Shown one piece after another: positions 294 to 34,659 of a DNA stretch of 34,767 nucleotides. The DNA comes from Bacteroidota bacterium. GTDB lineage: Bacteria > Bacteroidota > Bacteroidia > Bacteroidales > JABHKC01. Below the pieces are notes generated by a model. It searched no databases. It was not told the DNA's origin and was given only the letters and a program-made list of their open reading frames with translations. Position numbers and translations under genes: made by a program. The stretch lies in contig JABHKC010000122.1 of NCBI GenBank assembly GCA_018692315.1, forward strand, positions 1 through 34,767. The letters are read 5' to 3'. Every line of letters starts with the position of its first letter. Positions within the stretch are counted from its first letter, which is position 1.

Positions 294-3200
294 TTGAATA
301 CACATTATAAAATTGGTTTGGATATTGGGTCAACTACTGCAAAAATTGCAGTAGTTGATTCTTCGCAAAAGCTGATATTTTCGGAATACAGGCGACATAA
401 CACACAGATATATTACACTTTACACAATCTATTGGAGTCTGCAAAATCCGCCTTGGGCGACTGCGAAGTTCAACCAATATTGACTGGCTCTGCTGGTCTC
501 GGAATTTCTGAAAGAGTAGAAATTCCTTTTGTTCAAGAACTGGTTTCTACTACCGAAATCATTCGAAATAAATTTCCATCAGTAAAGACACTTATCGACA
601 TTGGAGGAGAAGACTCCAAAATGATTTTCTACAACGGAAAAAAAACACCCGATATAAGAATGAATGGAAGTTGTGCTGGTGGAACTGGTGCGTTTATTGA
701 TCAAATGGCTGCATTGTTGAATATCTCGCTTAAAGAACTCAATTCTCTTGCGAATAAGTCTTCCGCACTATATCCGATTGCCTCTCGCTGCGGAGTTTTT
801 GCTAAGACCGATGTTCAAAATTTAGTGAGCCGAAAAATACCGATTCAAGATATTGCAGCCTCAATATTTCATGCAATTGCAATTCAGACCATCAACACAC
901 TTGCACGTGGATTTGATATAAAATCTAAAGTAATATTATCTGGCGGACCTTTTACTTTTATGCCAGAATTGCAAAACGCATTTATTAATGCTCTTAAAAT
1001 CTCAAAATCTGACGTAATTCATACTAATAACACTGAGCTTTTCCCTGCTATAGGAGCTTGCTATTGCAAGGAAGAAAATCCTCCACAACTTAAAATTTCC
1101 AACTTTCAGAAAATCCTAAGTCAGGCTTCAAAAAATGGTATTACCTGCGATCGTTTGTCCCCTCTTTTCGAAAATAAGGAAATATTCAATCAGTGGAAAA
1201 ACAATAATATTAGCTTTGAAATTCCGAAGCAGAGCATTAAAAACTACATCGGCAAAGAATGTTTTATAGGAATAGATTCCGGTTCTACTACTACAAAAAT
1301 TGCAGTTATCGGCAAGAATAATGAGTTGTTATTTCAATATTATAAAAACAATGATGGCAAACCAATTGAAGCAGTAAAAAACGGTTTACTACAATTCAAA
1401 AAAGTATTAGAAAAAAAGAAAAAAGAAATTTTAATAGCTAAAACTGCTGTTACAGGTTACGGCGAAGATTTAATAAAAGCCTCTTTTTCAATTGATTTAA
1501 GTTTGGTCGAAACAATTGCACATTACAATGCTGCAAAGTTTTTTAACAAAAATGTTAGCTTCATACTCGATATCGGTGGACAAGACATGAAAGCTATTTT
1601 TGTAGAAAATAACCTCATAAATAGAATTGAGCTTAACGAATCTTGCTCATCAGGATGTGGTTCGTTCATCGAAACTTTCGGAAAATCTTTGGGCTACTCT
1701 GTTGAAGAATTTTCGCAAATTGCCTGTTCATCGAAAGCACCATGCGATTTAGGCACCAGATGCACCGTTTTTATGAACTCGAAAGTTAAACAAGCTTTGC
1801 GAGAAAATGCCTCAACTAACGATATTGCTGCAGGCCTGTCCATTTCAGTAATAAAAAATGCACTGCATAAAGTGCTTAAAATTAAAGACATTGCAGAACT
1901 CGGCGATAATATTGTAGTTCAAGGCGGAACATTTCGTAATCCATCGGTTCAGAAATCTTTAGAAACTTTAGTAGGGAAAAAGGTAATTTGTTCCGATTTG
2001 CCTGGATTGATGGGAGCTTTCGGGGCTTCACTTTTTGCAAAAAACAATTATTACAAGAAATCAAATAATGGTAGTTTTTCAAGCTTTAAGCTTACTGACA
2101 TGGAAAATTTTGGATTCAACAAAACTCAACAACTTAGATGTAAAGCTTGTGAAAATCAATGTATTGTAACAAAGTTTTATTCCAGCAGTAAAAACATTTA
2201 CTACTCTGGCAATAAATGCGAAAACATATTTTCAAACAAAGGGCAAAAAAATCAAAAAGGCATAAATTTATTTGATTATAAAAATGAATTATTGTTTCAA
2301 CCTGCTGTAAAAAATGAAAATTCAGAAGGAATAAAAATAGGAATACCGAGAGCCTTAAATATATACGAAAATTTTCCTTTTTGGAATTCTCTTTTAAGTA
2401 ATTGTGGGATAGATCTTGTTTTGTCCGAAGTATCAACAAATTCGATTTACGAAAAAGGACTTGGAACAATAATGTCCGATAGCATTTGCTTTCCTGCAAA
2501 ACTTGTTCATGGTCATATTTTTGAACTTATAGAAAAAAAAGTTGACAGGATTTTTTATCCAATGGTTTTTTATGAAAAAAATGAATTTGAAGAGTCCAAT
2601 AATCATTTCAATTGCCCGATTGTAAGTAGTTATGCAGATGTAATTAAAAGCTCTATAAATACTCTCCAGAACCATTCTGTTGAATTTGATGCACTTGAAA
2701 TAAATTTCAATAACGAAAAACTTCTGAAGTCGGCATGTTTTAAATATTTGAGTAAACTGAATATTAAACGTTCTGTTTATAAAAAAGCCTTAGATATAGC
2801 CATTGAAGCACAACAAAAATTCAAGCAAAAAATAAAATCGAAGGCGATAGAGATAATTGAAAAGTCGAAAAAAAACAATCAATTGTTAATTGTTTTGGCT
2901 GGAAGACCTTATCATTCCGATTCGCTTATCAATCATAAAATTCCTGAAATACTTGTAAATCTTGGAGTTAATGTGGTTACAGAAGATTCTGTTCCGCTGA
3001 GCAAAAACAAAACCGTTGAAGATTTGCATATTATTTCTCAATGGAGTTATCCGAACCGAATTTATAATGCAGCACAATGGGTTGCAGAACAAGACGAAAA
3101 TGTTCAGTTTGTGCTTTTTAATTCTTTTGGCTGTGGGCCAGATGCTATAGTAATCGACGAATGCAACGAAATCTTAAAATCGGCAGGCAAAATTCATACT

Positions 3201-22411: not shown

Positions 22412-25114
22412 TCAATTCGCAAGATAAGTAAAAACAACCGAATTTAAAGTTTTTATTTGATAGCCTTCACCAGGAATCATATTGACAATATTATTTATGC
22501 CAAATGAAGGCCAATAAATAAGTCCATTGCCGTTTTTCACAATCACAATTTCGTTCACTATTGGTGCTAACATAGATTCTATTAATGCCTGAGATTGCCG
22601 CAAATATCCAATAAAACTCCAATTTTGCAGGATTGTAATTGGGCTGAGTTCTGGAACCGAAGCATTTCCATAAACAACAAGCGTTTGTGGAGAGTTCATT
22701 TTTATTTGGTAGCCTTCACCTAACACTAAATCTCCAATATTGTTCAATCCGAAAAGTGGCCAATAAACCATTCCGTTTGTATTTTTTACAAGAATAATTT
22801 CAGGAAATAAATAATTCATCACACTATCAATGTTCGATTGAAATGGGTTCATATAAGTTGAAATAATACTCCAACCGGTTTGCATATTTATTACTTGGTT
22901 TTCTGTCAAATAAATTATTATTGAATCACTTGCAGAACAATTATTACTATCTGTAACCATTACTGAAAAATAGTTTGCTCCTGAATTTATCAAAGAACTA
23001 TCTACCAAAATTGTTTGGTTTGTCTGGCCGTTGCTCCATAAATATGAAATAAATCCTGCACCGGCATCAATCGTATAAATTTGTGAAAACCCAATAGTTG
23101 TATCGTTTCCAAGATATGTTACGGGATTTTGAACTAATGAAACATTTATGCTATCTCCCTCAGTATCTTCGCATTCATTTGTAACTGCTACATAATATAA
23201 TCCTAAATTTGAAATTGTTATTTGCTGGGAAGTTTCTCCTGTTGACCAGAAAAAATCGTTTCCGGGATTTCCAGCATTTAGTTCAAAGGTGTTGCCTTCG
23301 CATAAAACAGTATCATTTCCAAGATTAACCAGAGGAACTGGAAATATATCAATCTCAAAAGTATCAGAATCAATACATCCGGAGTATGCAACATCTACAA
23401 AAATGGTCATTGCAAAATCCGGCATAATAGTAACAGCTTGATTTGTAGCACCATCAGACCAAAGAAAAATTGCGCCCGGATTACCGGCATCAAGAAAAAT
23501 ACTGTCTTTTTCACAAACTGTAGTGTCTTCGCCAAGAAAAACTGAAGGAGACGGAAGGGGAGTAATTAGTATAGAATCTGAATCTGAACATCCAAAATTA
23601 TCAACTAAAACGCTGAAAATAGTTGGTGTACCGGGCGATGCAAATATTGTTTGATTAGTATCGCCGTTCGACCATAAAATACTTAATCCAGTGTTTTGCG
23701 CATCAAGAAAAACAGAATCTCCTTCGCATATTGTAGTATCGTTTCCGAGATTTACAATTGGTTGTGGAACTGCATTAATATTCACAATTTCGGTAGCAAA
23801 ACCACATTCATTATTTACAACAATGCTGTACAATCCACTTGTGGTCACTGTAATACTTTGAGTAGTTTCACCGGTTGACCAAAAATAGTTTGAGCCTGGA
23901 TTTCCGGCATCAAGAATTGCTGAACCACCATTACAAAAACTAATATTATTGTTAAAATTTACCGAAGGAGCAGGTGTAACTTGAACATATACAGAATCAA
24001 TAATAAATCCGCAACCATCAGAGATTGTAACATAATACATACCTGAATTTGTAACCAAAATTGAATCAACATATTGGTCGGTTGACCAATAATAGTTTGT
24101 CCCCGTCCCTCCTACAATCAAAATCAAAGAGTCGCCATAACAAATTGTAGTATCTCCAAATAAATTCGAAATGGGCAAATTGGCTATTTCTACTAAAATT
24201 GTATCATAAGATTCGCAGGCTGAAGTGTCTGTTATTGTAATATAATATTCAGTAGTAAATAAGGGACTTACAGAAATTGTTTGAGTAGTCTCGCCTGTTG
24301 ACCACAAATAGCTTGCAGCGAAATTTCCCGCATCTAAAAGCAAAGTATCGGTTTGGCAAATTAAAGTGTCGTTGCCAAGATTTATGGGTTGTGCTGCACA
24401 AGCATTATAATACACAACCAACTTTGGGTGCTTCGTACTATCCGAGTGATCGCTTGATGCAAAAACTAATCTACGATAGTAACTTGCAGTTTGCATTTGC
24501 AATTTGAAACCAAAACCTGTTGTAGGATTATCTATAATATCCTGTATCAAATTCGAAACATCTAAGTTTTCATAATCTTGAGTTAAACTTGTAGATTGAG
24601 GCATTATGACCTGATTTTGGGTAGTAGTAGCCGGCGCTGTATTCCATGTTACTGTTTGCTCGTTCCACGGTTGAATTACTCTTTGAATTAAGGTAGCGTT
24701 TGATCCGCTCGGACTCCAATGGTCGGGTTCGGAAGGAGTTGGAGAAAAATATAATGAAAAGAAAGCACTATCAATAGTCGCTCCAAAAGGAATTGAGCTT
24801 AAATCAAACTCAATTAATTGATGCAAGTGCCCAGATCCACTATTGCCGCTATTCCAAGTCCATTCTGAAATTTGAAAATCTGAACAATTTCCAAAATTGC
24901 TTGTATTAGAAGGCCCAAAAGTTCCGGTTTGAGAAGAAAGATACCAAAGTTTAGCATCTTTTCCATTAGCAGAACTAGGTTGAAGAACCAAAGGAGATTG
25001 CGCTATTGATAGATTTACTATTAAAATATTTGAAATAAAAAAAACAAGTAAACATAATTGACTTATTTTCAGATACCGCACAATATTCAAAAATGCCTCA
25101 GTTCTATTTTTCAT
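22412..25114 (-). CDS. Secreted multi-domain surface protein: DNRLRE domain, seven Ig-like repeats, duplicated C-terminal module
   Basis: A 900-residue exported protein with a signal peptide ending near residue 39 (NLSIAQ). Residues about 45-235 form a DNRLRE-type domain (LIEFDLSSIPFGATIDSAF, WNEQTVTWNTAP, HPKLVVYY). Residues about 245-745 are seven repeats of roughly 75 residues of the LGNDTTIC...LDAGN...YLWSTGETTQTI type, common in Bacteroidota surface and adhesin proteins. The seventh has TTIG where the others have Cys. Residues about 748-900 are two copies of a module with the core VKNxNGxxYWP...GEGYQIK. The protein ends in TYLAN. No usual type IX secretion C-terminal domain is visible. 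It is a close paralogue of the protein at 25223-27880 and probably shares a transcript with the 145-residue protein downstream. A role in adhesion, or in binding a polymer, is inferred. Confidence 0.9.
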   Translation of the reverse strand: MKNRTEAFLNIVRYLKISQLCLLVFFISNILIVNLSIAQSPLVLQPSSANGKDAKLWYLSSQTGTFGPSNTSNFGNCSDFQISEWTWNSGNSGSGHLHQLIEFDLSSIPFGATIDSAFFSLYFSPTPSEPDHWSPSGSNATLIQRVIQPWNEQTVTWNTAPATTTQNQVIMPQSTSLTQDYENLDVSNLIQDIIDNPTTGFGFKLQMQTASYYRRLVFASSDHSDSTKHPKLVVYYNACAAQPINLGNDTLICQTDTLLLDAGNFAASYLWSTGETTQTISVSPLFTTEYYITITDTSACESYDTILVEIANLPISNLFGDTTICYGDSLILIVGGTGTNYYWSTDQYVDSILVTNSGMYYVTISDGCGFIIDSVYVQVTPAPSVNFNNNISFCNGGSAILDAGNPGSNYFWSTGETTQSITVTTSGLYSIVVNNECGFATEIVNINAVPQPIVNLGNDTTICEGDSVFLDAQNTGLSILWSNGDTNQTIFASPGTPTIFSVLVDNFGCSDSDSILITPLPSPSVFLGEDTTVCEKDSIFLDAGNPGAIFLWSDGATNQAVTIMPDFAMTIFVDVAYSGCIDSDTFEIDIFPVPLVNLGNDTVLCEGNTFELNAGNPGNDFFWSTGETSQQITISNLGLYYVAVTNECEDTEGDSINVSLVQNPVTYLGNDTTIGFSQIYTIDAGAGFISYLWSNGQTNQTILVDSSLINSGANYFSVMVTDSNNCSASDSIIIYLTENQVINMQTGWSIISTYMNPFQSNIDSVMNYLFPEIILVKNTNGMVYWPLFGLNNIGDLVLGEGYQIKMNSPQTLVVYGNASVPELSPITILQNWSFIGYLRQSQALIESMLAPIVNEIVIVKNGNGLIYWPSFGINNIVNMIPGEGYQIKTLNSVVFTYLAN

Positions 25115-25135
25115 AATTTGCTGTATTTATTTCTA

Positions 25136-25143
25136 CAAATTTA
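25136..25143 (-). promoter_or_regulatory. Candidate -7 box (TAAATTTG) for the 900-residue surface protein
   Basis: The minus strand reads TAAATTTG 22-29 bases before the ATG at 25114, inside the 108-base gap between the two paralogues. It suggests the second paralogue has its own promoter. Confidence 0.45.
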
Positions 25144-25222
25144 TGAAATATAAAACTCTTTATACCATTTTAACTAAATAAATCTCCAAAAAACAAATAT
25201 ATGTAAGATTAAAACAAACTTT

Positions 25223-27880
25223 CTAATTAGCGGGATAAGTTAAAATAACATTATTCACTAATTTTATTTGATAACCTTCGCCTGGCACCATATTTACAAT
25301 TGCATTTAAATTATACAGAGGCCAATAAACAAATCCGTTTCCGTTTTTAACTAATACAATTTCATTCTCTATTGGAGCTAACATAGTTTCTATAGAAGCC
25401 TGTGTTTGCCTTAAATATCCGATGAAACTCCAACCTTGCGGGAATGTAATTGGAGAAAGTTCTGGTAGCACTGCATTTCCATAAACAATAAGTGTTTGTG
25501 GCGAATTTACTTTAACTTGATAGCCTTCGCCGATTACCATATCTCCAATGCTATTCAAAGCATAAAGAGGCCAATAAGTCATTCCGTAAGAGTTTTTAAC
25601 CAAGATAATTTCTGAAGCCAAATAGTTCATTACGCTGTCGATGTTTGGCTGAAAAGGAACCATATAAGTCGAAATAATATTCCAACCACTTTGCATATTA
25701 ATAGCCTGTTTATCAATCATATAAATAAATATTGAATCGGTACTATAACAATAATTTGTATCGGCAACTAAAACTGAAAAATAATTTGCTCCATAATTTA
25801 ACAATGAGCTATCTAAGGAAATAGTTTGGTTTGTTTCGCCATTGCTCCATAAATATGAAATGTATCCTGTTCCGGCATCTACGGTATAAACTTGCGAAAA
25901 ACAAATAGTTGTATCGTTTCCAAGATTAACTTCAGATTGTTGAGCAAAATTTACAATTATAGTATCGCCGGCAACATCTTCGCACTGATTAGTTGAGTTA
26001 ACTGTATAAAATCCTGAATTTGTGATAATTATTTGCTCGGTGGTTTCGCCTGTTGACCATAAATATTCATTACCTGAATTCCCTGCATCTAATTCAAATA
26101 CATTCCCATCACATAAAACTGTATCGTTTCCCAAATTTATTTGAGATATTGGGAAAATATTTATTTCAAAAGTATCTGTTTCTGTGCAGCCAAAGCTTGA
26201 AACATTTACAAAAACAGTCATAGAAAAATCAGGCATAAAGGTAGCGGTCTGATTTGTCGAACTATCAGACAAAAAAAAAGTTGATTCTGGATTTCCAGCA
26301 TCAAGAAAAATACTGTCTTTTTCACAAACTGTTGTGTCTTCGCCAAGAAAAACTGTTGGTGAAGGTTGTGGCGCAATAAGAATAGAGTCAGTTGCTAAAC
26401 AACCAAAATTATCGATAAGAACACTATAAATAGTAGGTAGATTTGGAATTGCCAGTATAGATTGCGTAGAATCTCCATTTGACCAGAAAAAATTCATCCC
26501 CTGATTTTGTGCATTTAGTAAAACGCTTTCCCCTGCACAGATTATAGTATCATTTCCAAGATTTACATAGGGTGTCGCAATAGATAAAACAGAAACACTA
26601 TCAACAACAATTCCACATTCGTTACTAACAACTAAACTATATACTCCTGAAGAATTAACCTCAATATTTTCAGTTGTTTCACCTGTTGACCATAAATATT
26701 CTGAACCAGGATTGCCAGCCTCAAGGATTACTGAATCGCCAAAACAAATGTTTATTTCATTTGTTAAATATAAGTTTGGTGTTATAATTACATCAACATT
26801 TACAGAATCAGTAATAAAACCACAACCATTTGAAATTGAAACATAATAAATTCCTGAATTAGAAACAGCTATAGAGTCAACATATTCATCAGTGGACCAA
26901 TAGTAGGAAGCATTTGCATCTCCCACAATTAATATTACAGAATCTCCTGAGCAAATCGTTGTGTCTTCAATCAAATTTGAAACCGGAGAACTATTTACCT
27001 CTACCATTATCGAATCGTAGCTTGAGCAAGCATTATCTACCACAGTAACAAAATATTCTGTTGTAAACATAGGATTTACAGTAATTGCCTGAGTTGTTTC
27101 ACCTGTTGACCACAAAAAACTACTTGCTCCAGAATTTCCTGCATCCAATTGCAAAGTGTCTATTCCACAAATTAAGGTATCATCGCCAATATTAACTGTT
27201 GGTGCAAGACAATTGGAATAATAAACCACAAGTTTTGGGTGCACCGATGCGTCTAAATTATCACTTGAAGCAAAAACTAACTTCCTATAAGCACTTGCAA
27301 TTTGCATACTTATTCTAAAGCCAAATCCTTCTGTCGGATTATCAAGCATATCCTGAACCAAAGATGTAACTACAATATTTTCATAGTTTTGAGTAGGGCT
27401 TGTTGATTGTAGTAAAACCACCTGATTTTGCACACTATAATTTGGAGCATTATCCCAGGTAACCACTAATTCATTCCAAGGTTGAATTATCCTTTGAACT
27501 AAACCAGCATTAGAACCTGACAAGTTAAAATGAGTTCCTTGTATTGAGTTTACATCATGATACAGGAATAAAAATGCACTATCGATTGTCGTGCCCAAGG
27601 GAATTGAGGATAGGTTAAATTGAACCAAGCTAGCTATACTTCCTGGGAATCTTCTCCAATTCCATGCAGCTGCGACAAAATCAGTACTATTCCCGTAGTT
27701 TGTAGTATTGGTAGGTCCGAAATTTGCTAAGTTTTGATTACTTAAATACCAAATCGTAGCATCTTTTCCAGCAATAGCATTTGGTTGTAGAGTTAAAACC
27801 GTTTGAGAATTTGCATTCTTACCTATTCCAAAGATGGATAAAACGAAAAAAACTATAATCCAAATTCTCTTTGCTTTCAT
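25223..27880 (-). CDS. Secreted multi-domain surface protein, paralogue of the one at 22412-25114
   Basis: An 885-residue exported protein with a signal peptide ending near NANSQ (residue 26). It has the same plan as its neighbour: a DNRLRE-type domain to about residue 225 (LVQFNLSSIPLGTTIDSAF, WNELVVTWDNAP, HPKLVVYY), seven Ig-like repeats at about 230-727, each with the D-x-I/T-I/V-C start, and two copies of the C-terminal module at about 730-885, ending in TYPAN. All seven repeats here keep the Cys. The fifth repeat is almost identical at DNA level to that of the paralogue, while the N-terminal domains have diverged. It probably arose by tandem duplication. A function in adhesion or matrix binding is inferred from the domain types. 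Confidence 0.9.
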   Translation of the reverse strand: MKAKRIWIIVFFVLSIFGIGKNANSQTVLTLQPNAIAGKDATIWYLSNQNLANFGPTNTTNYGNSTDFVAAAWNWRRFPGSIASLVQFNLSSIPLGTTIDSAFLFLYHDVNSIQGTHFNLSGSNAGLVQRIIQPWNELVVTWDNAPNYSVQNQVVLLQSTSPTQNYENIVVTSLVQDMLDNPTEGFGFRISMQIASAYRKLVFASSDNLDASVHPKLVVYYSNCLAPTVNIGDDTLICGIDTLQLDAGNSGASSFLWSTGETTQAITVNPMFTTEYFVTVVDNACSSYDSIMVEVNSSPVSNLIEDTTICSGDSVILIVGDANASYYWSTDEYVDSIAVSNSGIYYVSISNGCGFITDSVNVDVIITPNLYLTNEINICFGDSVILEAGNPGSEYLWSTGETTENIEVNSSGVYSLVVSNECGIVVDSVSVLSIATPYVNLGNDTIICAGESVLLNAQNQGMNFFWSNGDSTQSILAIPNLPTIYSVLIDNFGCLATDSILIAPQPSPTVFLGEDTTVCEKDSIFLDAGNPESTFFLSDSSTNQTATFMPDFSMTVFVNVSSFGCTETDTFEINIFPISQINLGNDTVLCDGNVFELDAGNSGNEYLWSTGETTEQIIITNSGFYTVNSTNQCEDVAGDTIIVNFAQQSEVNLGNDTTICFSQVYTVDAGTGYISYLWSNGETNQTISLDSSLLNYGANYFSVLVADTNYCYSTDSIFIYMIDKQAINMQSGWNIISTYMVPFQPNIDSVMNYLASEIILVKNSYGMTYWPLYALNSIGDMVIGEGYQVKVNSPQTLIVYGNAVLPELSPITFPQGWSFIGYLRQTQASIETMLAPIENEIVLVKNGNGFVYWPLYNLNAIVNMVPGEGYQIKLVNNVILTYPAN

Positions 27881-28188
27881 AATAAACTTATTATTTATAC
27901 TTCCTTAAATCACTTTTAAAATATAACTATACAATGTTGCATATTAAACTCTGTAATAATTACATTTTTGTAATCTAAGCAAATATATAATAATTATAAT
28001 CAAATACAAATATTTTATGAAACATTTAACTTTTGTACCATTAAATTACTAATTTTAACTTTCAAAAAAAGACACTATATAAAAGCAAACAGCAAAACTT
28101 CATTATGAAACCTCATTTTAAAAAAGATTTACATTTTTTCAGTCATAAAATAATATTTTATAAATAAATACAATTCTAACATATACTT
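27881..28188. other. Divergent intergenic region between the surface protein and ispE
   Basis: This AT-rich gap of about 308 bases separates two divergent genes. Apart from the two -7-like boxes listed separately I see no gene, RNA or convincing hairpin. A 20-codon frame from the ATG at 28105 is too short to support. Confidence 0.6.
27980..27987 (-). promoter_or_regulatory. Candidate -7 box (TATATTTG) for the 885-residue surface protein
   Basis: The minus strand reads TATATTTG, an exact consensus match, about 100 bases before the ATG at 27880, which implies a leader of roughly 90 bases. Confidence 0.35.
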
Positions 28189-28191
28189 TTG
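28184..28191 (+). promoter_or_regulatory. Candidate -7 box (TACTTTTG) for ispE
   Basis: TACTTTTG fits TAnnTTTG and ends 21 bases before the ATG at 28213. It contains the TTG at 28189 that would be the alternative start, which argues for the ATG. Confidence 0.5.
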
Positions 28192-28212
28192 TACAGAATT
28201 AATAAAAATACT

Positions 28213-29046
28213 ATGATTTGTTTCCCAAATGCAAAAATAAATATTGGATTAAATATAATTCATAAAAGAAACGATGGATTCCATAACATTGAATCTGTAT
28301 TTCTTCCAATTCAGCTTTGTGATATTTTAGATTTTGTTGAGATTCAAAAAGATACTAAAAAAAATACCTACCTTGAAATTTCTGGAATTCAAATTGATGG
28401 AGAAAACCAAGACAATCTGATCATGAGAGCTTATAGACTGTTGGCTAATGAATTCAATTTACCCGAATTAGAAATTCATTTACACAAAAAAATTCCTATG
28501 CAAGCTGGTTTGGGCGGGGGATCAGCAGATGCTGCATTTTTGCTAAATTGTTTGAATAGAAAGTATAACTTAGGTTTAAGTTTGGCAAACTTAAAACGTT
28601 ATGCTTCACAAATAGGTGCTGATTGTTCTTTTTTCGTAGAAAATAAAGCGGCTTTTGTTTCCGGAAAAGGTGAGATTCTTGAATCAATTGATATTGATTT
28701 GTCAAAAAATAATATCGTAATAGTTAAAACGAATATAAACGTTTCTACTGCTGAGGCATATGCTGGAGTTATTCCCAACAAGCCAAAATATCCTTTGAAG
28801 GAATTGATAAAATCGCCTATATCAGAATGGAAGAATAAAATTCATAACGATTTTGAAGATGGCATTTTTTCAAGCAACAGTAAATTGAAAGAGATAAAAC
28901 AAAAACTCTATGATTTAGGTGCCGAATATGCTTCAATGTCGGGAAGTGGTTCAGCAATTTATGGCATTTTCGATAAGGAAATTTGCATCCAAAAACAATT
29001 TAAAGATTGTTTCGTTTGGCGAGGTAAAGTAATTTCGAATTACTAA
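28213..29046 (+). CDS. ispE: 4-(cytidine-5'-diphospho)-2-C-methyl-D-erythritol kinase
   Basis: A GHMP kinase of the non-mevalonate isoprenoid pathway, phosphorylating CDP-methylerythritol. The ATG at 28213 gives 277 residues, a normal length. It starts with the family strand CFPNAKINIGLNI and has the ATP-binding loop PMQAGLGGGSADAAF near residues 94-108, IGADCSFF near 135 and the closing MSGSGSAIYGIF near 243. The TTG eight codons upstream is rejected because it lies in a promoter-like box and ahead of the conserved start. It stands alone, converging with the biotin carrier gene. This shows the organism uses the methylerythritol phosphate route. Confidence 0.96.
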   Translation: MICFPNAKINIGLNIIHKRNDGFHNIESVFLPIQLCDILDFVEIQKDTKKNTYLEISGIQIDGENQDNLIMRAYRLLANEFNLPELEIHLHKKIPMQAGLGGGSADAAFLLNCLNRKYNLGLSLANLKRYASQIGADCSFFVENKAAFVSGKGEILESIDIDLSKNNIVIVKTNINVSTAEAYAGVIPNKPKYPLKELIKSPISEWKNKIHNDFEDGIFSSNSKLKEIKQKLYDLGAEYASMSGSGSAIYGIFDKEICIQKQFKDCFVWRGKVISNY

Positions 29047-29111
29047 TTCATACTTAGAAATTAACAATCAGACAATTTTGGACAAAAATATGTTTTGAGA
29101 ACTAAAAGCAA

Positions 29112-29441
29112 TTATTCAAACTCAATAAGAAGTTCGTTTTTAGGAACTGCTTGCCCTTCAGCAACATGAATCTTTTTTATTTTCCCGTTAAATGGAGCCA
29201 ATAGTTTGTTCTGCATTTTCATAGCTTCAATGATAAGAAGTTTGCTGCCTTTCTTGACCTTTTGATCATTCTTAACAAATAATTTCAAAATGGTTCCTGG
29301 AATAAATGCAGCTAATTTTTTCTCATCAGGCTTTTCCCAATTTTTGCGATTCTCGAATTTCTTTGAAAATTGAGTAATATATTTACCCCCATCAATAATA
29401 ATCGATTTATTTTTTGGCTTTATTTCAGTTTCTTTTTCCAT
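29112..29441 (-). CDS. Biotin/lipoyl attachment carrier protein (acyl-CoA carboxylase or decarboxylase biotin subunit)
   Basis: A 109-residue biotin carrier. The C-terminal 70 residues form the biotinyl domain, with the attachment motif EAMKM at 72-76 (Lys75) and the hallmark partner segment LLAPFNGKIKKIHVAEGQAV. The N-terminal 40 residues are charged and serve as a linker. The ATG start at 29441 is 77 bases after the stop of the carboxyltransferase gene, so the two probably work together. It resembles the small gamma subunits of methylmalonyl-CoA or oxaloacetate decarboxylases and short carriers of propionyl-CoA carboxylase. Confidence 0.93.
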   Translation of the reverse strand: MEKETEIKPKNKSIIIDGGKYITQFSKKFENRKNWEKPDEKKLAAFIPGTILKLFVKNDQKVKKGSKLLIIEAMKMQNKLLAPFNGKIKKIHVAEGQAVPKNELLIEFE

Positions 29442-29518
29442 GATTATTTCTGTTCATTATTAAATAATCTTTTCATTACATAAATACAAAATATTGGCAA
29501 TCTTCGTTCCGAAGTTTT

Positions 29519-31063
29519 TTAGAATGGTGGGATTCCATGTTTTTTGTTTGGAATTGGAACTGCTTTATTTACAGAAACTTCTATTGCATGAAGCAAGAAT
29601 TTTCTGGTTTCAACAGGCTCAATAACAGTATCGACATATCCTTTCGCAGCAGCAACATATGGATTTGCAAATTTCTCTTTATATTCTTTAACCTTAAGTT
29701 TTCGCATTTCTTCAGGATTTTCTGCCTCTGAAATTTCTTTTCTGAAAATGATATTTGCTGCTCCTTCAGGTCCCATAACTGCAATTTCAGCAGCCGGCCA
29801 TGCAAAAACAAAATCGGCTCGCAAATGTCTCGAATTCATTGCAATATATCCTCCACCATAAGCTTTTCTGAGAATAACTGAAATCTTTGGAACAGAGGCT
29901 TCACAATAAGCATAAAGTATCTTTGCTCCGTGCCTAATAACTCCTGCATGTTCTTGATCAACGCCCGGCAGATAACCTGGCAAATCGACCAAAGTAACAA
30001 TTGGAATACTAAATGCATTGCAAAATCTGATGAAACGGGCTGCTTTATCAGAAGAATCAACATCAAGAACTCCGGCTAATACCAATGGTTGGTTCGCTAC
30101 AAAGCCAATTGTTTCGCCATCTAATCGGCCAAAACCTATTACTATGTTTTGTGCCCAATCTTTTTGTATTTCGAAAAAATCGGAATCGTCAACCAGAGAT
30201 TTTATTACATCTAATATATCGTATGGTTGCTTTGGATCTGATGGAACAATATTTTCGATTTTGTATTCCCGCAAAGGTTTTTTCGATGGAAATGGTCTGG
30301 CTTTTTGCTTATTATTCCATGGAATAAATTTGATAAGTCTTTTTATTTGATCGAAACATTCACTTTCTGTTTTAGCAAAAAAATGAGCATTTCCTGTAAT
30401 TTGGCTATGTACTTTTGCTCCTCCAAGTTCTTCCATCGAAATTTCTTCACCGAGTACAGTCTTAATTACTTCAGGACCTGTAATGAACATTTTCGATATA
30501 TTTTCAACCACAAAAACAAAATCTGTGAGAGCAGGAGAATATACTGCACCTCCTGCACAAGGACCTAAAATTACTGAAATTTGAGGTATTACACCGGAAG
30601 CCAGAGTATTCCTGAAAAATATCTCACCATAGCCGGCCAAAGAATTTACTCCTTCCTGAACTCTTGCCCCACCCGAATCATTAATTCCAATTAAAGGAAC
30701 ACGCATTTTCATAGCATGATCCATAATTTTTGTAATTTTACGGGCGTGCATCAAGCCTAATGAACCTCCTGCTACTGTAAAATCTTGTGCATAAATACAA
30801 ACAGGCGCTCCATAAATTTTTCCGGTACCAATAATTACTCCGTCGCCATGCAGAGTTTTTTTATCCATATTAAAATCTCTGGCTTCGTGAGCTACAAAAA
30901 GGTCGTATTCGTGAAACGATTCTTTATCGAGAAGTGTTAAAATTCTTGTTCTCGCTGTAAGCTTTCCTAATGCTGCTTGTTTAGCAATAGCTTTTTCTCC
31001 GCCCCCTTGAAATACTTCTTCTTTCCTTTTCTGAAGTTCCCGAATTTTACGTTTAAGTCCCAT
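29519..31063 (-). CDS. Acyl-CoA carboxyltransferase subunit (methylmalonyl-CoA decarboxylase alpha / propionyl-CoA carboxylase beta type)
   Basis: A 514-residue carboxyltransferase of the crotonase fold. It transfers carboxyl between biotin and a short acyl-CoA. The N-terminal half has GKLTARTRILTLLDKESF, LGLMHARKITKIMDHA, the ARVQEGVNSLAGYGEIF motif and GPCAGGAVYSPALTDFV. The C-terminal half has DLPGYLPGVDQEHAGVIRHG, KAYGGGYIAMNSRHL and WPAAEIAVMGPEGAANI, all typical of PccB/MmdA. The protein cannot be assigned to propionyl-CoA carboxylation or methylmalonyl-CoA decarboxylation by sequence alone. The carrier subunit follows. The biotin carboxylase and the sodium-pumping membrane subunit are both absent from the window. 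Confidence 0.95.
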   Translation of the reverse strand: MGLKRKIRELQKRKEEVFQGGGEKAIAKQAALGKLTARTRILTLLDKESFHEYDLFVAHEARDFNMDKKTLHGDGVIIGTGKIYGAPVCIYAQDFTVAGGSLGLMHARKITKIMDHAMKMRVPLIGINDSGGARVQEGVNSLAGYGEIFFRNTLASGVIPQISVILGPCAGGAVYSPALTDFVFVVENISKMFITGPEVIKTVLGEEISMEELGGAKVHSQITGNAHFFAKTESECFDQIKRLIKFIPWNNKQKARPFPSKKPLREYKIENIVPSDPKQPYDILDVIKSLVDDSDFFEIQKDWAQNIVIGFGRLDGETIGFVANQPLVLAGVLDVDSSDKAARFIRFCNAFSIPIVTLVDLPGYLPGVDQEHAGVIRHGAKILYAYCEASVPKISVILRKAYGGGYIAMNSRHLRADFVFAWPAAEIAVMGPEGAANIIFRKEISEAENPEEMRKLKVKEYKEKFANPYVAAAKGYVDTVIEPVETRKFLLHAIEVSVNKAVPIPNKKHGIPPF

Positions 31064-31130
31064 TTTATATATTCTTAGTTATACACAAATATTTATATTT
31101 TTTCTACATTTTCTGAAAAAGAAAAAGCTT

Positions 31131-31138
31131 CAAAAGTA
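31131..31138 (-). promoter_or_regulatory. Candidate -7 box (TACTTTTG) for the carboxyltransferase gene
   Basis: The minus strand reads TACTTTTG about 70 bases before the ATG at 31063, so the leader would be about 60 bases. Match is exact, position only moderately convincing. Confidence 0.35.
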
Positions 31139-31206
31139 TTATTTTTTTTTAAACCAAATTATTTCTTTTTATCATGAAAAAATTAGTCTATTAAATCCTA
31201 ATATTT

Positions 31207-31998
31207 TCATTTTTCAGCACAAACTGTGATGCTTAGAATTTTTGCATCACTATTAAGGTAAATCTCATACTCTTCTAGCGAAAGGTACTGTTTTACAAGT
31301 CCTTCGGGTAATATGTAAAGTTTCTCATCAAGAATTTTTACATTTTTAAATCCCGATTTTTCAATAATATTTAAATAGTCCTGTTTGTTGATTGCACCTG
31401 CGACACAACCGACATATAATGAAGCCGATTTTCTTAACTTATCGGGCAAATTTCCCGAGACTACAATATCAGAGATGCTAAATTTCCCATGCTCTTTCAA
31501 AATCCTGTGAACCTCTGAAAAGGCTTTGTTCTTGTCAGGGACAAGATTCATAACACAATTACTAATCACAATATCAGCAGACTTGTTTTCCACAGGAAGT
31601 TTTTCAATGTCTCCATAACGAAATTCGACATTTTTATATCCAAGCTTTTTGTTATTCTCATTGGCTTTAACTATCATAGCCTCAGTAAAATCAACACCAA
31701 TAACTTTGCCTGTTTCACCAACAAATCTCCTTGCAACAAAAGCATCGTTTCCGGCACCAGAGCCCAAATCAACAACTGTGTCGCCTTTTTTTATGCTGAC
31801 AAATCCGGTTGGAATTCCGCAACCAAGACCATAATCAGCATCTTTTTCGTAACCAGAAATTTCTGAATAATCCTTACTAAAATCAGTACTTCCATCAGGG
31901 AAAATATTATCGGTACCACATCCGCAACAACAGGATTTTTCTGATTGTACTATTTCTGCATATTTTTCTTTTACTGTATCTTTAATTTCTTTCGGCAT
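31207..31998 (-). CDS. arsM: Arsenite S-adenosylmethionine methyltransferase (ArsM-like)
   Basis: A 263-residue Rossmann methyltransferase that most likely methylates As(III). The SAM-binding loop is VVDLGSGAGNDAF at 75-87, with GVDFTEAM at 101-108 and the acidic YGDIEKLP at 128-135. The cysteines match the arsenite-binding triad of the family: Cys60 in YGLGCGIP, Cys148 in ISNCVMNLVP and Cys198 in YVGCVAGAI. A Cys-rich N-terminus (C23, C24, C25, C27) is also common in bacterial ArsM. No arsR, arsB or acr3 lies beside it. A TAnnTTTG box precedes it. It may be an isolated or acquired detoxification gene, since a MITE-like element lies directly upstream. Confidence 0.9.
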   Translation of the reverse strand: MPKEIKDTVKEKYAEIVQSEKSCCCGCGTDNIFPDGSTDFSKDYSEISGYEKDADYGLGCGIPTGFVSIKKGDTVVDLGSGAGNDAFVARRFVGETGKVIGVDFTEAMIVKANENNKKLGYKNVEFRYGDIEKLPVENKSADIVISNCVMNLVPDKNKAFSEVHRILKEHGKFSISDIVVSGNLPDKLRKSASLYVGCVAGAINKQDYLNIIEKSGFKNVKILDEKLYILPEGLVKQYLSLEEYEIYLNSDAKILSITVCAEK

Positions 31999-32052
31999 AA
32001 TATTTTTTTGTTAATCACTTTATTTTGATTATAACTTCAAGCAATAAAAATA

Positions 32053-32060
32053 CAAAGATA
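32053..32060 (-). promoter_or_regulatory. Candidate -7 box (TATCTTTG) for arsM
   Basis: The minus strand reads TATCTTTG 55-62 bases before the ATG at 31998. It lies 22 bases from the left end of the repeat-flanked element, so insertion of that element may have altered upstream control. Confidence 0.4.
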
Positions 32061-32081
32061 CTCAAAACAATTCGTTGGAAA

Positions 32082-32231
32082 AGTTCCAATAATTGAGTCC
32101 ACTCCGAAAAATAAAAAAAACGGAATTAAGTCATCAGATGAATTTGTCAATTAACAAATTAACAGATAGCAAAATACCAGGACTTTGCAAAAATATTCAT
32201 CTGATGACTTTTCGGAGTAGTTCCAATAATT
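32082..32231. mobile_element. MITE-like element or insertion-sequence remnant with terminal inverted repeats and 13-base direct repeats
   Basis: A 13-base direct repeat AGTTCCAATAATT flanks the segment (32082-32094 and 32219-32231). Inside, the left arm ACTCCGAAAA (32101-32110) plus GTCATCAGATGAAT (32130-32143) pairs perfectly with one continuous right arm at 32195-32218, leaving an AT-rich spacer of about 19 bases between the two parts of the left arm. No open frame fits inside. This is what a small non-autonomous element looks like. The family is not recognised, and the left boundary is six bases inside the direct repeat. Confidence 0.6.
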
Positions 32232-32244
32232 TGTATTTATGAAA

Positions 32245-32274
32245 CATCCCGAAAGTTTCGAAACTTTCGGGATG
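32245..32274. terminator. Perfect 30-base palindrome, likely bidirectional terminator
   Basis: CATCCCGAAAGTTTC is followed immediately by its exact reverse complement, so a 15-pair stem can form without a loop in the DNA. On the plus strand it is followed by six T in ATTTTTTAATT. It lies 30 bases after the stop of the beta-propeller protein gene, which reads on the minus strand, so it may end that transcript. Confidence 0.6.
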
Positions 32275-32304
32275 ATTTTTTAATTAGTAATTCGTCATTA
32301 GTAA

Positions 32305-34230
32305 TTAATTCGCCGGATATAGTAAAGTATCCGCTGCCGTCATTTTTATTTGGTAGCCTTCGCCGGGATTCATGTTTCCTATGTTGTTGATGCCATACAA
32401 GGGCCAATAAACCAGGCCATTGCCATTTTTTACAACATATACATTTGAAGAAATATTGGCAAGCATAGTACCAATGTCTCCGGGGTTTTGGCGGAGGTAG
32501 CCATTTATATTCCAGCCTGACTGTAAGTTCAATGGTGTTGTTTCGGGCACAACAGCTATGCCGTTTACTTCAAGGATATTAAAATTGTACATTTTTATAA
32601 TATAACCTTCTCCAATTTGTAAATTACCAATTGTGTTTACATTATATATTGGCCAAAAAGTTTCTCCAATTTCATTTTTCATAAGAACCATATCGGCGGC
32701 TACATCGTCAAAAACTGAATCGCAATCGGGCACATAAGGATCAACATAGCTCGAAATTATTGACCAACCCAGATTTAGATTTACAAAATGTTTGGTGTGG
32801 TCGGGGACGTATTGTGTGGCTTTTAGAAGGAAAACATCAAGATCGCCATTGTAATAAAAATAGCCGGGTGAGGTCAGGCTGTCAAATTGAACAGACATTC
32901 CTATAAATTTGCCTGCAACAAATATCTCAAAATCATTATTAACAGAAATATTTGTGGGATAAACAGTATGTGATGTGCTGAAAGGAGTTATCCATTGTTT
33001 AACACCATCCATACTAAACTTGCAAATAAATGGAGCTAAATCAGGATTATCAACAAATGGGTATATTGTATCTGAAGCAAAGTATATAGTATTAAAACTA
33101 TTTGGTATGTGAAACGAAAAATAAACATTGTCATCTTTATCACAACTAACAACCGGATATCTATAAGCATCAAGCCAACCAACATTATTTGTGTATTTCG
33201 ACCAAAACAAGCTGCCACTTGAGTTAAATTTTGCCAAAAATGAATTATCATTATTAAATCCTGTACCTGAAATAGTTGACCATATTGTATCATTATTTAT
33301 TAAAAATGTTGTACTATTTGATCTTCCACAAAGCAGGATATTGTTTGAACTATCGACCTCTAAATCAAACAAATTGTTCGCATCATCTCCCCCAAAAGGA
33401 ACATTCCAAAGCAGATTTCCATTTGCGTTAAATTTTAATAGATAGGCGGTATAATTACCGCTTGAAGGTAAAATGCTACCACCAACATTAAAAGGCACTA
33501 CACTTCCCCTTTCTATATAGTAGATATTTCCATATTCATCTACCACAAGATCAGTGGGCTCATTATCAACAGAACTGTATATTCTCTTTATCCAAAGCTC
33601 ATTGCCAAGCGAATCGTATTTTGCTATAAAAGCATCTTCGGTTCCTGAATTGCCGATTGTTGTGCCTGCGAAGGTTAGTGAGGGGCTATCGTAATAGCCA
33701 GCAATTATAATACTACCATCCATATCTATTGCTAATTTAGTAGGATAATCGTCACCATATCCTCCAAAATAATACATTCCAATGGGATTGCCGGTAGTAT
33801 CTTGCTTTGCTATAAAAATATCATTTGTTCCAGTAAATGGATTTAAAGTAGTAGATCCATACGAAATAGGCCAATTTGTGTATATATTTAATGTGGAATA
33901 AATGAAATTCTTATGTATTTTGCAATCATATATATTGTTATACAATACATTAGCTATTTCGAAAGCAGAATTATTAGTTCCTGCATTATTATAATTAAAT
34001 AAGTAATTACTGCTTCCAATTAAAATAGTATCCATCGTATGTATAGTGTCTGACAAAGCTGCACCTGGAGAGTTTGTTACTAATTTGCATGAGTTATTGT
34101 CTAAGGTTAATAAAATGGGTTTATCATCATTTTCATTTCCCATTGTTCTAAGCCAGTCATAAGAAGTAATTTGTGAAAAACCAAAAAAATAATAAAAAAT
34201 AAGGGAGAATATTAGTATATGTTTTTTCAT
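32305..34230 (-). CDS. Secreted beta-propeller (SBBP-type) surface protein with duplicated C-terminal module
   Basis: A 641-residue protein from the ATG at 34230, where a signal peptide begins (MKKHILIFSLIFYYFFGFSQ). The longer frame to 34305 adds 25 residues that precede this signal and overlap a hairpin and a promoter-like box. Residues about 120-470 contain repeats of the kind DAFIAKYDSLGNELWIKR...LVVDEYGNIY, typical of SBBP beta-propeller domains. Residues about 480-641 are two copies of the same module found at the end of the 900- and 885-residue proteins: the first has GWSIISSYVDP and GEGYIIKMYN, the second GWNINGYLRQ and GEGYQIKM, and the protein ends in LLYPAN. No usual type IX signal is visible. 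Likely surface-exposed; the ligand is unknown. Confidence 0.9.
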   Translation of the reverse strand: MKKHILIFSLIFYYFFGFSQITSYDWLRTMGNENDDKPILLTLDNNSCKLVTNSPGAALSDTIHTMDTILIGSSNYLFNYNNAGTNNSAFEIANVLYNNIYDCKIHKNFIYSTLNIYTNWPISYGSTTLNPFTGTNDIFIAKQDTTGNPIGMYYFGGYGDDYPTKLAIDMDGSIIIAGYYDSPSLTFAGTTIGNSGTEDAFIAKYDSLGNELWIKRIYSSVDNEPTDLVVDEYGNIYYIERGSVVPFNVGGSILPSSGNYTAYLLKFNANGNLLWNVPFGGDDANNLFDLEVDSSNNILLCGRSNSTTFLINNDTIWSTISGTGFNNDNSFLAKFNSSGSLFWSKYTNNVGWLDAYRYPVVSCDKDDNVYFSFHIPNSFNTIYFASDTIYPFVDNPDLAPFICKFSMDGVKQWITPFSTSHTVYPTNISVNNDFEIFVAGKFIGMSVQFDSLTSPGYFYYNGDLDVFLLKATQYVPDHTKHFVNLNLGWSIISSYVDPYVPDCDSVFDDVAADMVLMKNEIGETFWPIYNVNTIGNLQIGEGYIIKMYNFNILEVNGIAVVPETTPLNLQSGWNINGYLRQNPGDIGTMLANISSNVYVVKNGNGLVYWPLYGINNIGNMNPGEGYQIKMTAADTLLYPAN

Positions 34231-34255
34231 ACTTTTAATATTAAATTTAAAATAA

Positions 34256-34263
34256 CAAAAATA
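34256..34263 (-). promoter_or_regulatory. Candidate -7 box (TATTTTTG) for the beta-propeller protein
   Basis: The minus strand reads TATTTTTG 26-33 bases before the ATG at 34230, and a TTG lies 17 bases farther upstream (34283-34281), close to the expected -33 spacing. That TTG is inside the stem of the hairpin at 34276-34316. Confidence 0.5.
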
Positions 34264-34275
34264 ATAAAATACATA

Positions 34276-34316
34276 TAAGTCAAGGTTTGAAAAGGAAAGA
34301 ATCAAACCTTGACTTA
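34276..34316. repeat. Inverted repeat, 15-base arms, upstream of the beta-propeller gene
   Basis: TAAGTCAAGGTTTGA (34276-34290) and TCAAACCTTGACTTA (34302-34316) are exact reverse complements separated by 11 bases. It overlaps the probable -33 region of the gene at 32305-34230. It could be an operator-like site or a leftover terminator. Confidence 0.6.
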
Positions 34317-34340
34317 AGAAATGGGTCTAATACTTGAAAA

Positions 34341-34370
34341 CTTTCCAAAAGTTTTTGAACTTTTGGAAAG
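34341..34370 (-). terminator. Hairpin after the truncated surface-protein frame
   Basis: CTTTCCAAAAGTT (34341-34353) pairs with AACTTTTGGAAAG (34358-34370) around a four-base loop, and the minus strand continues with TTTTC. It lies 13 bases after the stop of the fragment at 34384-34659 and probably terminated the original gene. Confidence 0.6.
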
Positions 34371-34383
34371 ATGCTGCTAAAAT

Positions 34384-34659
34384 CTAATTCGCCGGATAAA
34401 GCAAAGTATCAGCCGCCAGCATTTTTATTTGGTAGCCTTCGCCCGGGTTCATATTTCCAATATTGTTGATGCCATATATTGGCCAATAGAGTTGACCATT
34501 GCCATTTTTTACAATATATACATTAGATGATATTGTTGTAAGCATACTATCAATTGTCCCGCTGTTTTGTCGAAGGTAGCCAATTATATTCCAATCTTGC
34601 TGCAGAGCAATAGGCGACCACTCAGGAACATCATAGGATTTAAGGCTCAGTTGAGCCAA
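34384..34659 (-). pseudogene. Remnant of a surface protein: a single copy of the C-terminal module
   Basis: The frame encodes about 90 residues that match the last half of the double module of the neighbouring beta-propeller protein (WNIIGYLRQNSG, VKNGNGQLYWPIYGINN, GEGYQIKM, ending LLYPAN), with high similarity also at DNA level. It has no ATG in frame, only a TTG at 34659, no signal peptide and no first module copy. The similarity stops at about 34630-34650, directly before two inverted repeats. I read it as the 3' end of a truncated gene. A small intact protein produced through a frameshift in the nearby run of nine A (plus strand) cannot be fully excluded. Confidence 0.6.
34644..34657. 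repeat. Short inverted repeat GGCTCA-GT-TGAGCC
   Basis: A six-base stem with a two-base centre. The 11 bases GCTCAGTTGAG inside it recur with one change as GCTCAATTGAG at 34727-34737, on the other side of the 17-base hairpin. Confidence 0.5.

Follow-up and report, generated by a model that had tools for sequence, protein, structure and literature searches.

The window analysed here, that is, the whole stretch of 34,767 nucleotides, is contig C122 in the 4.98 Mb assembly (248 contigs) of a Bacteroidota bacterium. At four places, all on the minus strand, it encodes seven copies of a module of about 80 residues (Table 1). These copies had been described in a first-pass annotation made from the letters alone; all of them are indeed present, and their alignment contains 14 invariant columns. 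In the three complete genes two copies form a tandem pair, and copy B is the C-terminus of the protein, with YLAN as the last residues in gene 1 and YPAN in genes 2 and 3, as that annotation had stated. Its remark that different domains stand in front of the pair was also correct: genes 1 and 2 match DNRLRE models (E 1.1e-25 and 3.6e-21) and, weakly, PKD/Ig models, while the front part of gene 3 matches a beta-propeller lipoprotein model (E 8e-18, far below the cut-off of the model). The frame at 34384-34659 holds a single copy of the second type. Because no first copy was found in any frame of the 147 bases between this copy and the contig end, it looks like a remnant. Lone second-type copies that resemble it also occur inside contigs (L051:3501-3725, minus strand; L063:477-638, plus strand), with about 450 bases upstream that lack a first copy.

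Table 1. Module-bearing genes and their features in the window.
Feature	Position	Strand	Basis
Gene 1: signal peptide, DNRLRE/CBM96, Ig-like repeats, terminal module pair	22412..25114	-	
Gene 1, module copy A	22664..22900	-	alignment + profile
Gene 1, module copy B, YLAN end	22415..22648	-	alignment + profile
Gene 1, DNRLRE domain, residues 69-234	24413..24910	-	domain model match
Gene 2: signal peptide, DNRLRE/CBM96, Ig-like repeats, terminal module pair	25223..27880	-	
Gene 2, module copy A	25475..25711	-	alignment + profile
Gene 2, module copy B, YPAN end	25226..25459	-	alignment + profile
Gene 2, DNRLRE domain, residues 57-219	27224..27712	-	domain model match
Gene 3: signal peptide, beta-propeller, terminal module pair	32305..34230	-	
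Gene 3, module copy A	32560..32793	-	alignment + profile
Gene 3, module copy B, YPAN end	32308..32541	-	alignment + profile
Gene 3, part matching SBBP-lipoprotein model	33397..33834	-	domain model match
Lone module copy B near contig end, probably broken-gene remnant	34387..34620	-	

Sortase and PEP-CTERM anchors combine a C-terminal motif with a hydrophobic helix and a basic tail. On reading the sequences, no tail of this type was seen in the three window proteins, which stop at YLAN or YPAN directly behind the predicted folded domain, nor was a lipobox cysteine. A Pfam scan of the 17 window frames, two of which gave no match at all, matched no PorP/SprF-like family and no gene for a GDEIG-like domain plus C-terminal domain (CTD; see below) adjoining the module genes.

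Judged by sequence, the module appears to be an undescribed domain, as first suspected, with no family found in Pfam, NCBIfam, or the PDB sequences searched. The last 160 residues of the window proteins had no Pfam or NCBIfam domain match. Searches with 55 single modules against Pfam and with 22 pairs against NCBIfam returned scattered matches only (best E 0.0064, one module per family, and best E 0.026, at most two pairs per family, respectively), and the models of the type A CTD of the type IX secretion system (T9SS), PF18962 and TIGR04183, were matched in neither. Profile searches of PDB sequences were unconvincing for the single module (best E 0.57) as well as for the pair (best E 0.0094, to a designed propeller). 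Among the titles and abstract openings of the literature searched, no description of the module was recognized.

AlphaFold2 modeled the window pair from 86 alignment rows with a mean pLDDT of 97.8 and a pTM of 0.90, and structure prediction for the second copy alone (122 rows) gave a pLDDT of 93.9 and a pTM of 0.81. The models predict that a single module can fold alone and that the two copies form one compact unit, which answers the question that the first-pass annotation had referred to structure prediction. Each module contains two short helices in the models. CTD structures were absent from the lists of fold matches, which excludes nothing, and Foldseek found no PDB entry at E <= 0.001 (best 0.087 for the pair and 1.5 for the single module). 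In a second structure comparison the best matches were HPr phosphocarriers, too weak to use, for the pair (best Z 4.3; 2hpr, 66 residues, 2.9 A) and for the single module (best Z 4.8; 3le3_A, 69 residues, 2.8 A). Missing PDB fold matches do not show that the fold is novel.

The expectation of many copies per genome was borne out, with at least 150 scored matches to the module profile among 247 candidates in the source genome (weakest listed 2e-21); the seven window copies match their own profile, by construction, at E <= 7e-34. Outside the window 92 regions with such matches were retrieved. Pairing is strict: of 101 unique frames in the source genome, 92 carry exactly two modules, 9 carry one (cut frames or remnants), and none carries more than two. 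The same holds for all 90 frames from other assemblies, obtained from 80 loci, the best 80 of 211, in a scan of genome contigs. At locus L076 two pair-bearing frames (1-1806 and 1810-2997, plus strand) are separated by one stop codon, and the first ends in VLNY instead of YPAN. A lipoprotein consisting of the module pair alone, with a lipobox cysteine, is encoded at L169:2450-3070 (plus strand), adjoining a terminal-pair gene.

When the 15 source-genome frames with one module or without a stop in the retrieved sequence are excluded, 86 frames with two modules and a stop codon remain. The pair is terminal in 41 of them, with 0-6 residues between pair and stop, and internal in 45, where it is followed by 28 residues (2 frames) or by 196-588 residues (43 frames). 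The 90 frames from other assemblies divide into 27 terminal ones (0-11 residues after the pair) and 63 internal ones (60 with 173-234 residues and 3 with a longer tail). Seven of 37 further loci, taken from the best matches of genome searches, have the pair 0-8 residues from the stop. Terminal pairs are present in assemblies labeled Bacteroidales, Flavobacteriales, and Ignavibacteriae, and in one labeled Desulfobulbaceae, a label that is doubtful since the genome has a SprA match (2.9e-288). The first-pass annotation had expected the module almost only at protein ends, which was not borne out, as more sequence lies behind the pair in 45 of 86 frames in its own genome and in 63 of 90 elsewhere. 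Two findings had been named there as speaking against its reading, a match to a named domain and a frequent position inside proteins; the former was not found, and the latter was found in part, at these same frequencies.

A type A CTD (E <= 1e-4) was detected in 25 of the 36 internal-pair proteins scanned, these being the ones below 2000 aa out of 45. The usual internal tail is a GDEIG-like domain followed by the type A CTD. The GDEIG-like domain (about 125 residues; L067:3087-3461, minus strand, and 28 similar stretches) lies between pair and CTD and has 71 matches in the source genome; Pfam scans of three proteins left it unmatched, and it is probably a second undescribed T9SS-linked domain. 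Other tails behind the pair consist of FISUMP (TIGR02145) or FGE-sulfatase (PF03781) domains, which are C-terminal in some CTD-less proteins, but both are named families that do not resemble the module in sequence. In one SprB-repeat protein (L117:405-3464, plus strand, contig C42) a type A CTD match is internal (residues 556-627, 31 bits, cut-off 27) and the pair terminal. The YPAN motif was considered as a terminal recognition tag and ruled out, as it is equally common inside proteins (21 of 45 internal and 19 of 41 terminal pairs); because of this equal frequency it is better seen as the edge of the domain.

A CTD might also be hidden behind the stop codon or supplied in trans. Readthrough or frameshifting into such a CTD was rejected, the stop codons of the 41 terminal genes being mixed (TAA 19, TAG 13, TGA 9), and for 37 of these genes no CTD-like coding was found in the 1.2 kb behind the stop, or in as much of it as the retrieved sequence covered. 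The four downstream CTD-like matches lie in the next frame after the stop (L076), in a separate gene (L137), on the opposite strand (L126), and in a remnant 3' of the stop in a different frame (L098); the terminal ending at L098 is thus a recent CTD loss. The separate gene (L137:2258-3040, minus strand; C98:30542-31324) is a frame of 261 aa directly downstream of a terminal-pair gene and has a signal peptide, a short stretch resembling the module end, a GDEIG-like domain, and a type A CTD. Supply in trans was not retained either, since among the 71 GDEIG matches no second complete GDEIG + CTD protein stands alone. Three propeller paralogs (L137, L066, and L120) share a similar repeat-like sequence, CAGTCCCTGCGGG or a variant of it, after their stop codons.

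Cargo of the T9SS is recognized via known C-terminal domains. The type A CTD is an Ig-like seven-stranded beta-sandwich, and export of its carriers depends on SprA and PorV, while genes for type B proteins usually have a PorP/SprF-like gene nearby. Types A, B, and C (the ChiA-like class) are named in a review (PMC10202324). Like the type A CTD, the pair is found at the very end of signal-peptide proteins, and within this genome the two share cargo families. However, the two have no sequence match, the type A CTD is one domain of about 75-100 residues where the pair consists of two modules of about 80 residues with predicted helices, and both often share a protein, the pair coming first. The type B CTD (PF13585 / TIGR04131) is likewise an alternative C-terminal T9SS domain, found in SprB-repeat frames of the source genome, but has no sequence match to the window proteins, and no PorP/SprF-like neighbor was matched in the window. 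That the window proteins lack the usual type IX domain, as noted at first, agrees with the absence of any match to type A or type B models in all three.

The proteins carrying a terminal pair look like exported cargo. A signal-peptide-like start, called by a simple home-made hydrophobicity rule, is present in 34 of the 35 terminal frames whose 5' end is complete, as had been expected, and in 34 of 39 internal frames. Genome-wide, the cargo of the 41 terminal frames is varied and includes, according to Pfam, two C25 gingipain-type proteases with propeptides, a C10 protease with inhibitor domain, one subtilase, two CotH proteins, one PhoD-like protein, and nine SprB-repeat proteins. For a comparison of endings, the C25, SBBP, and SprB families were picked by family search, independent of the pair (SBBP with 150 of 219 candidates scored, SprB with 150 of 470). 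This gave 72 unique frames, of which 14 were cut by contig ends and 58 were used, next to 4 further matches without a retrieved locus; one match per frame was entered by hand. The CTD-ended frames comprise 16 with type A only, 14 with pair and type A (one of them, C157:3727, assigned on weak module scores of 9.7 and 25.8 bits), and 6 with type B only. Those without a terminal CTD comprise 15 with a terminal pair (including C42 despite its internal CTD-like stretch), 4 with the pair and another tail, and 3 with none, namely C178 and two fragments of a single broken gene, C145. With class rules set after the data were seen, the pair occurs in 19 of the 22 frames that lack a terminal CTD vs. 14 of the 36 that have one (Fisher p = 0.0004; p = 0.00004 without the two C145 pieces), and the contrast is weaker for terminal pairs alone (15 of 22 vs. 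14 of 36, p = 0.057). None of the eight C25 frames lacks both elements at its end: four have type A, two have pair plus type A, and two have a terminal pair. Six SprB-repeat frames finish with a type B CTD, a position taken by the pair in others.

On a tree of 84 pairs from the source genome (40 terminal, 44 not), the type of ending requires 15 changes (bootstrap 13-17), at least four of which are forced by well-supported branches, and shuffled endings require 28 changes on average, with none of 500 shuffles as low as 15. The ending is therefore heritable, yet has been switched repeatedly. For example, the two DNRLRE pairs of the window and two near relatives cluster with three pairs that are followed by GDEIG and CTD (L067-L069; support 100/95). 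Terminal pairs are under purifying selection, with dN/dS of 0.08-0.32 in all 29 terminal-terminal comparisons at an identity of at least 66%. In seven of seven chosen paralog comparisons each module copy is 68-99% alike vs. 27-59% for the cargo part. Synonymous differences are lower in the pair than in the cargo in two of the seven (0.30 vs. 0.64 and 0.29 vs. 0.70; L104/L105 and window 32308-32793/L066), and this drop suggests an exchange of C-terminal segments between paralogs. In the other five, synonymous differences remain at 0.49-0.62 and amino-acid changes are fewer in the pair, so that constraint is the simpler cause.

In a sample of 395 genomes of the phylum, at least 34 carry the module at E <= 1e-6, with no more than 14 candidates scored in each genome. 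SprA (TIGR04189), the T9SS translocon, is found in all 34 of them vs. 270 of the 361 others (p = 0.00015, uncorrected for kinship), and the source genome has it at C149:24242-31555. All 11 further genomes have SprA too, and 8 of these hold a terminal pair; the pair at L173 is internal, and G031 and G040 were looked at for pairs only among best-match loci.

Taken together, we tentatively read the pair as a domain at the C-terminus of T9SS-type cargo that serves surface sorting or attachment and is able to replace the CTD, with a probability that we place just short of even. We infer that the pair mediates export, that terminal-pair proteins are transported across the outer membrane, and that an export or anchoring machine recognizes the pair. 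An ordinary signal peptide would bring the proteins to the periplasm. The pair, recognized by a machine or surface partner that many proteins have in common, would then allow their transport to the cell surface or their retention there. Roughly half of the proteins would use the pair jointly with the GDEIG-like domain and the classical type A CTD behind it; in the other half, including the three complete window genes, the pair would be the last element and stand in for the CTD. The sorting or anchoring signal proposed at first is thus retained in part: the pair's presence in 19 of 22 CTD-less cargo frames favors it, and its often internal position and the lack of terminal specificity of YPAN do not. 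An export signal would moreover be superfluous in about half of the pairs because a CTD follows, and the pairs that precede FISUMP or FGE-sulfatase domains without a CTD count against sorting as well. The same applies to the fact that extracellular non-CTD proteins can use other routes; for one endoglucanase, for example, a vesicle route was suggested (PMC6247017).

A rival reading is that the pair serves in binding (of glycan, matrix, or another protein) or as a stalk and has no export role, the terminal-pair proteins leaving through some unrecognized feature or in vesicles, or staying periplasmic. We regard this as a serious possibility, though one falling well short of even. It agrees with the full type A CTD behind the pair in 25 of 36 scanned internal proteins, with the FISUMP or FGE tails, with the indifference of YPAN to position, and with the lipoprotein that consists of nothing but the pair. 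A binding role would suit this lipoprotein, which is one of the two main doubts about sorting, the other being that half of the pairs sit before a CTD or another domain. The rival reading leaves unexplained why the pair is near-constant in CTD-less frames of the cargo families and why there is always one pair, near the C-terminus. Decay of truncated T9SS proteins that have lost their CTD would account for the L098 remnant and for some 15 changes of ending on the tree. This is nevertheless improbable, given the purifying selection on terminal pairs, the existence of whole terminal clades and of terminal pairs in other lineages, and the fact that all 41 frames stop within 6 residues of the domain edge. 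Terminal-pair proteins could also ride out on a CTD-bearing partner, either an internal-pair protein or a separate GDEIG + CTD protein such as that encoded at C98:30542-31324; as this protein is the only complete free-standing one and none was matched beside the window genes, we consider such a ride quite improbable.

A stronger form of the surface-sorting reading, in which the pair adds another class to the secretion or anchoring signals of the T9SS, has no sequence relation to types A and B, and carries a large hidden share of the surface proteome, is doubtful and in our view rather unlikely. If it were true, surveys of T9SS cargo that use known CTDs only would miss 41 terminal frames in this genome alone. 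If the pair replaces the CTD, dozens of proteases, adhesin-like proteins, and propeller proteins per genome would be surface proteins that annotation leaves unaddressed. If it only binds, the pair would still be a very common extracellular domain for which neither a family model nor a solved relative was found.
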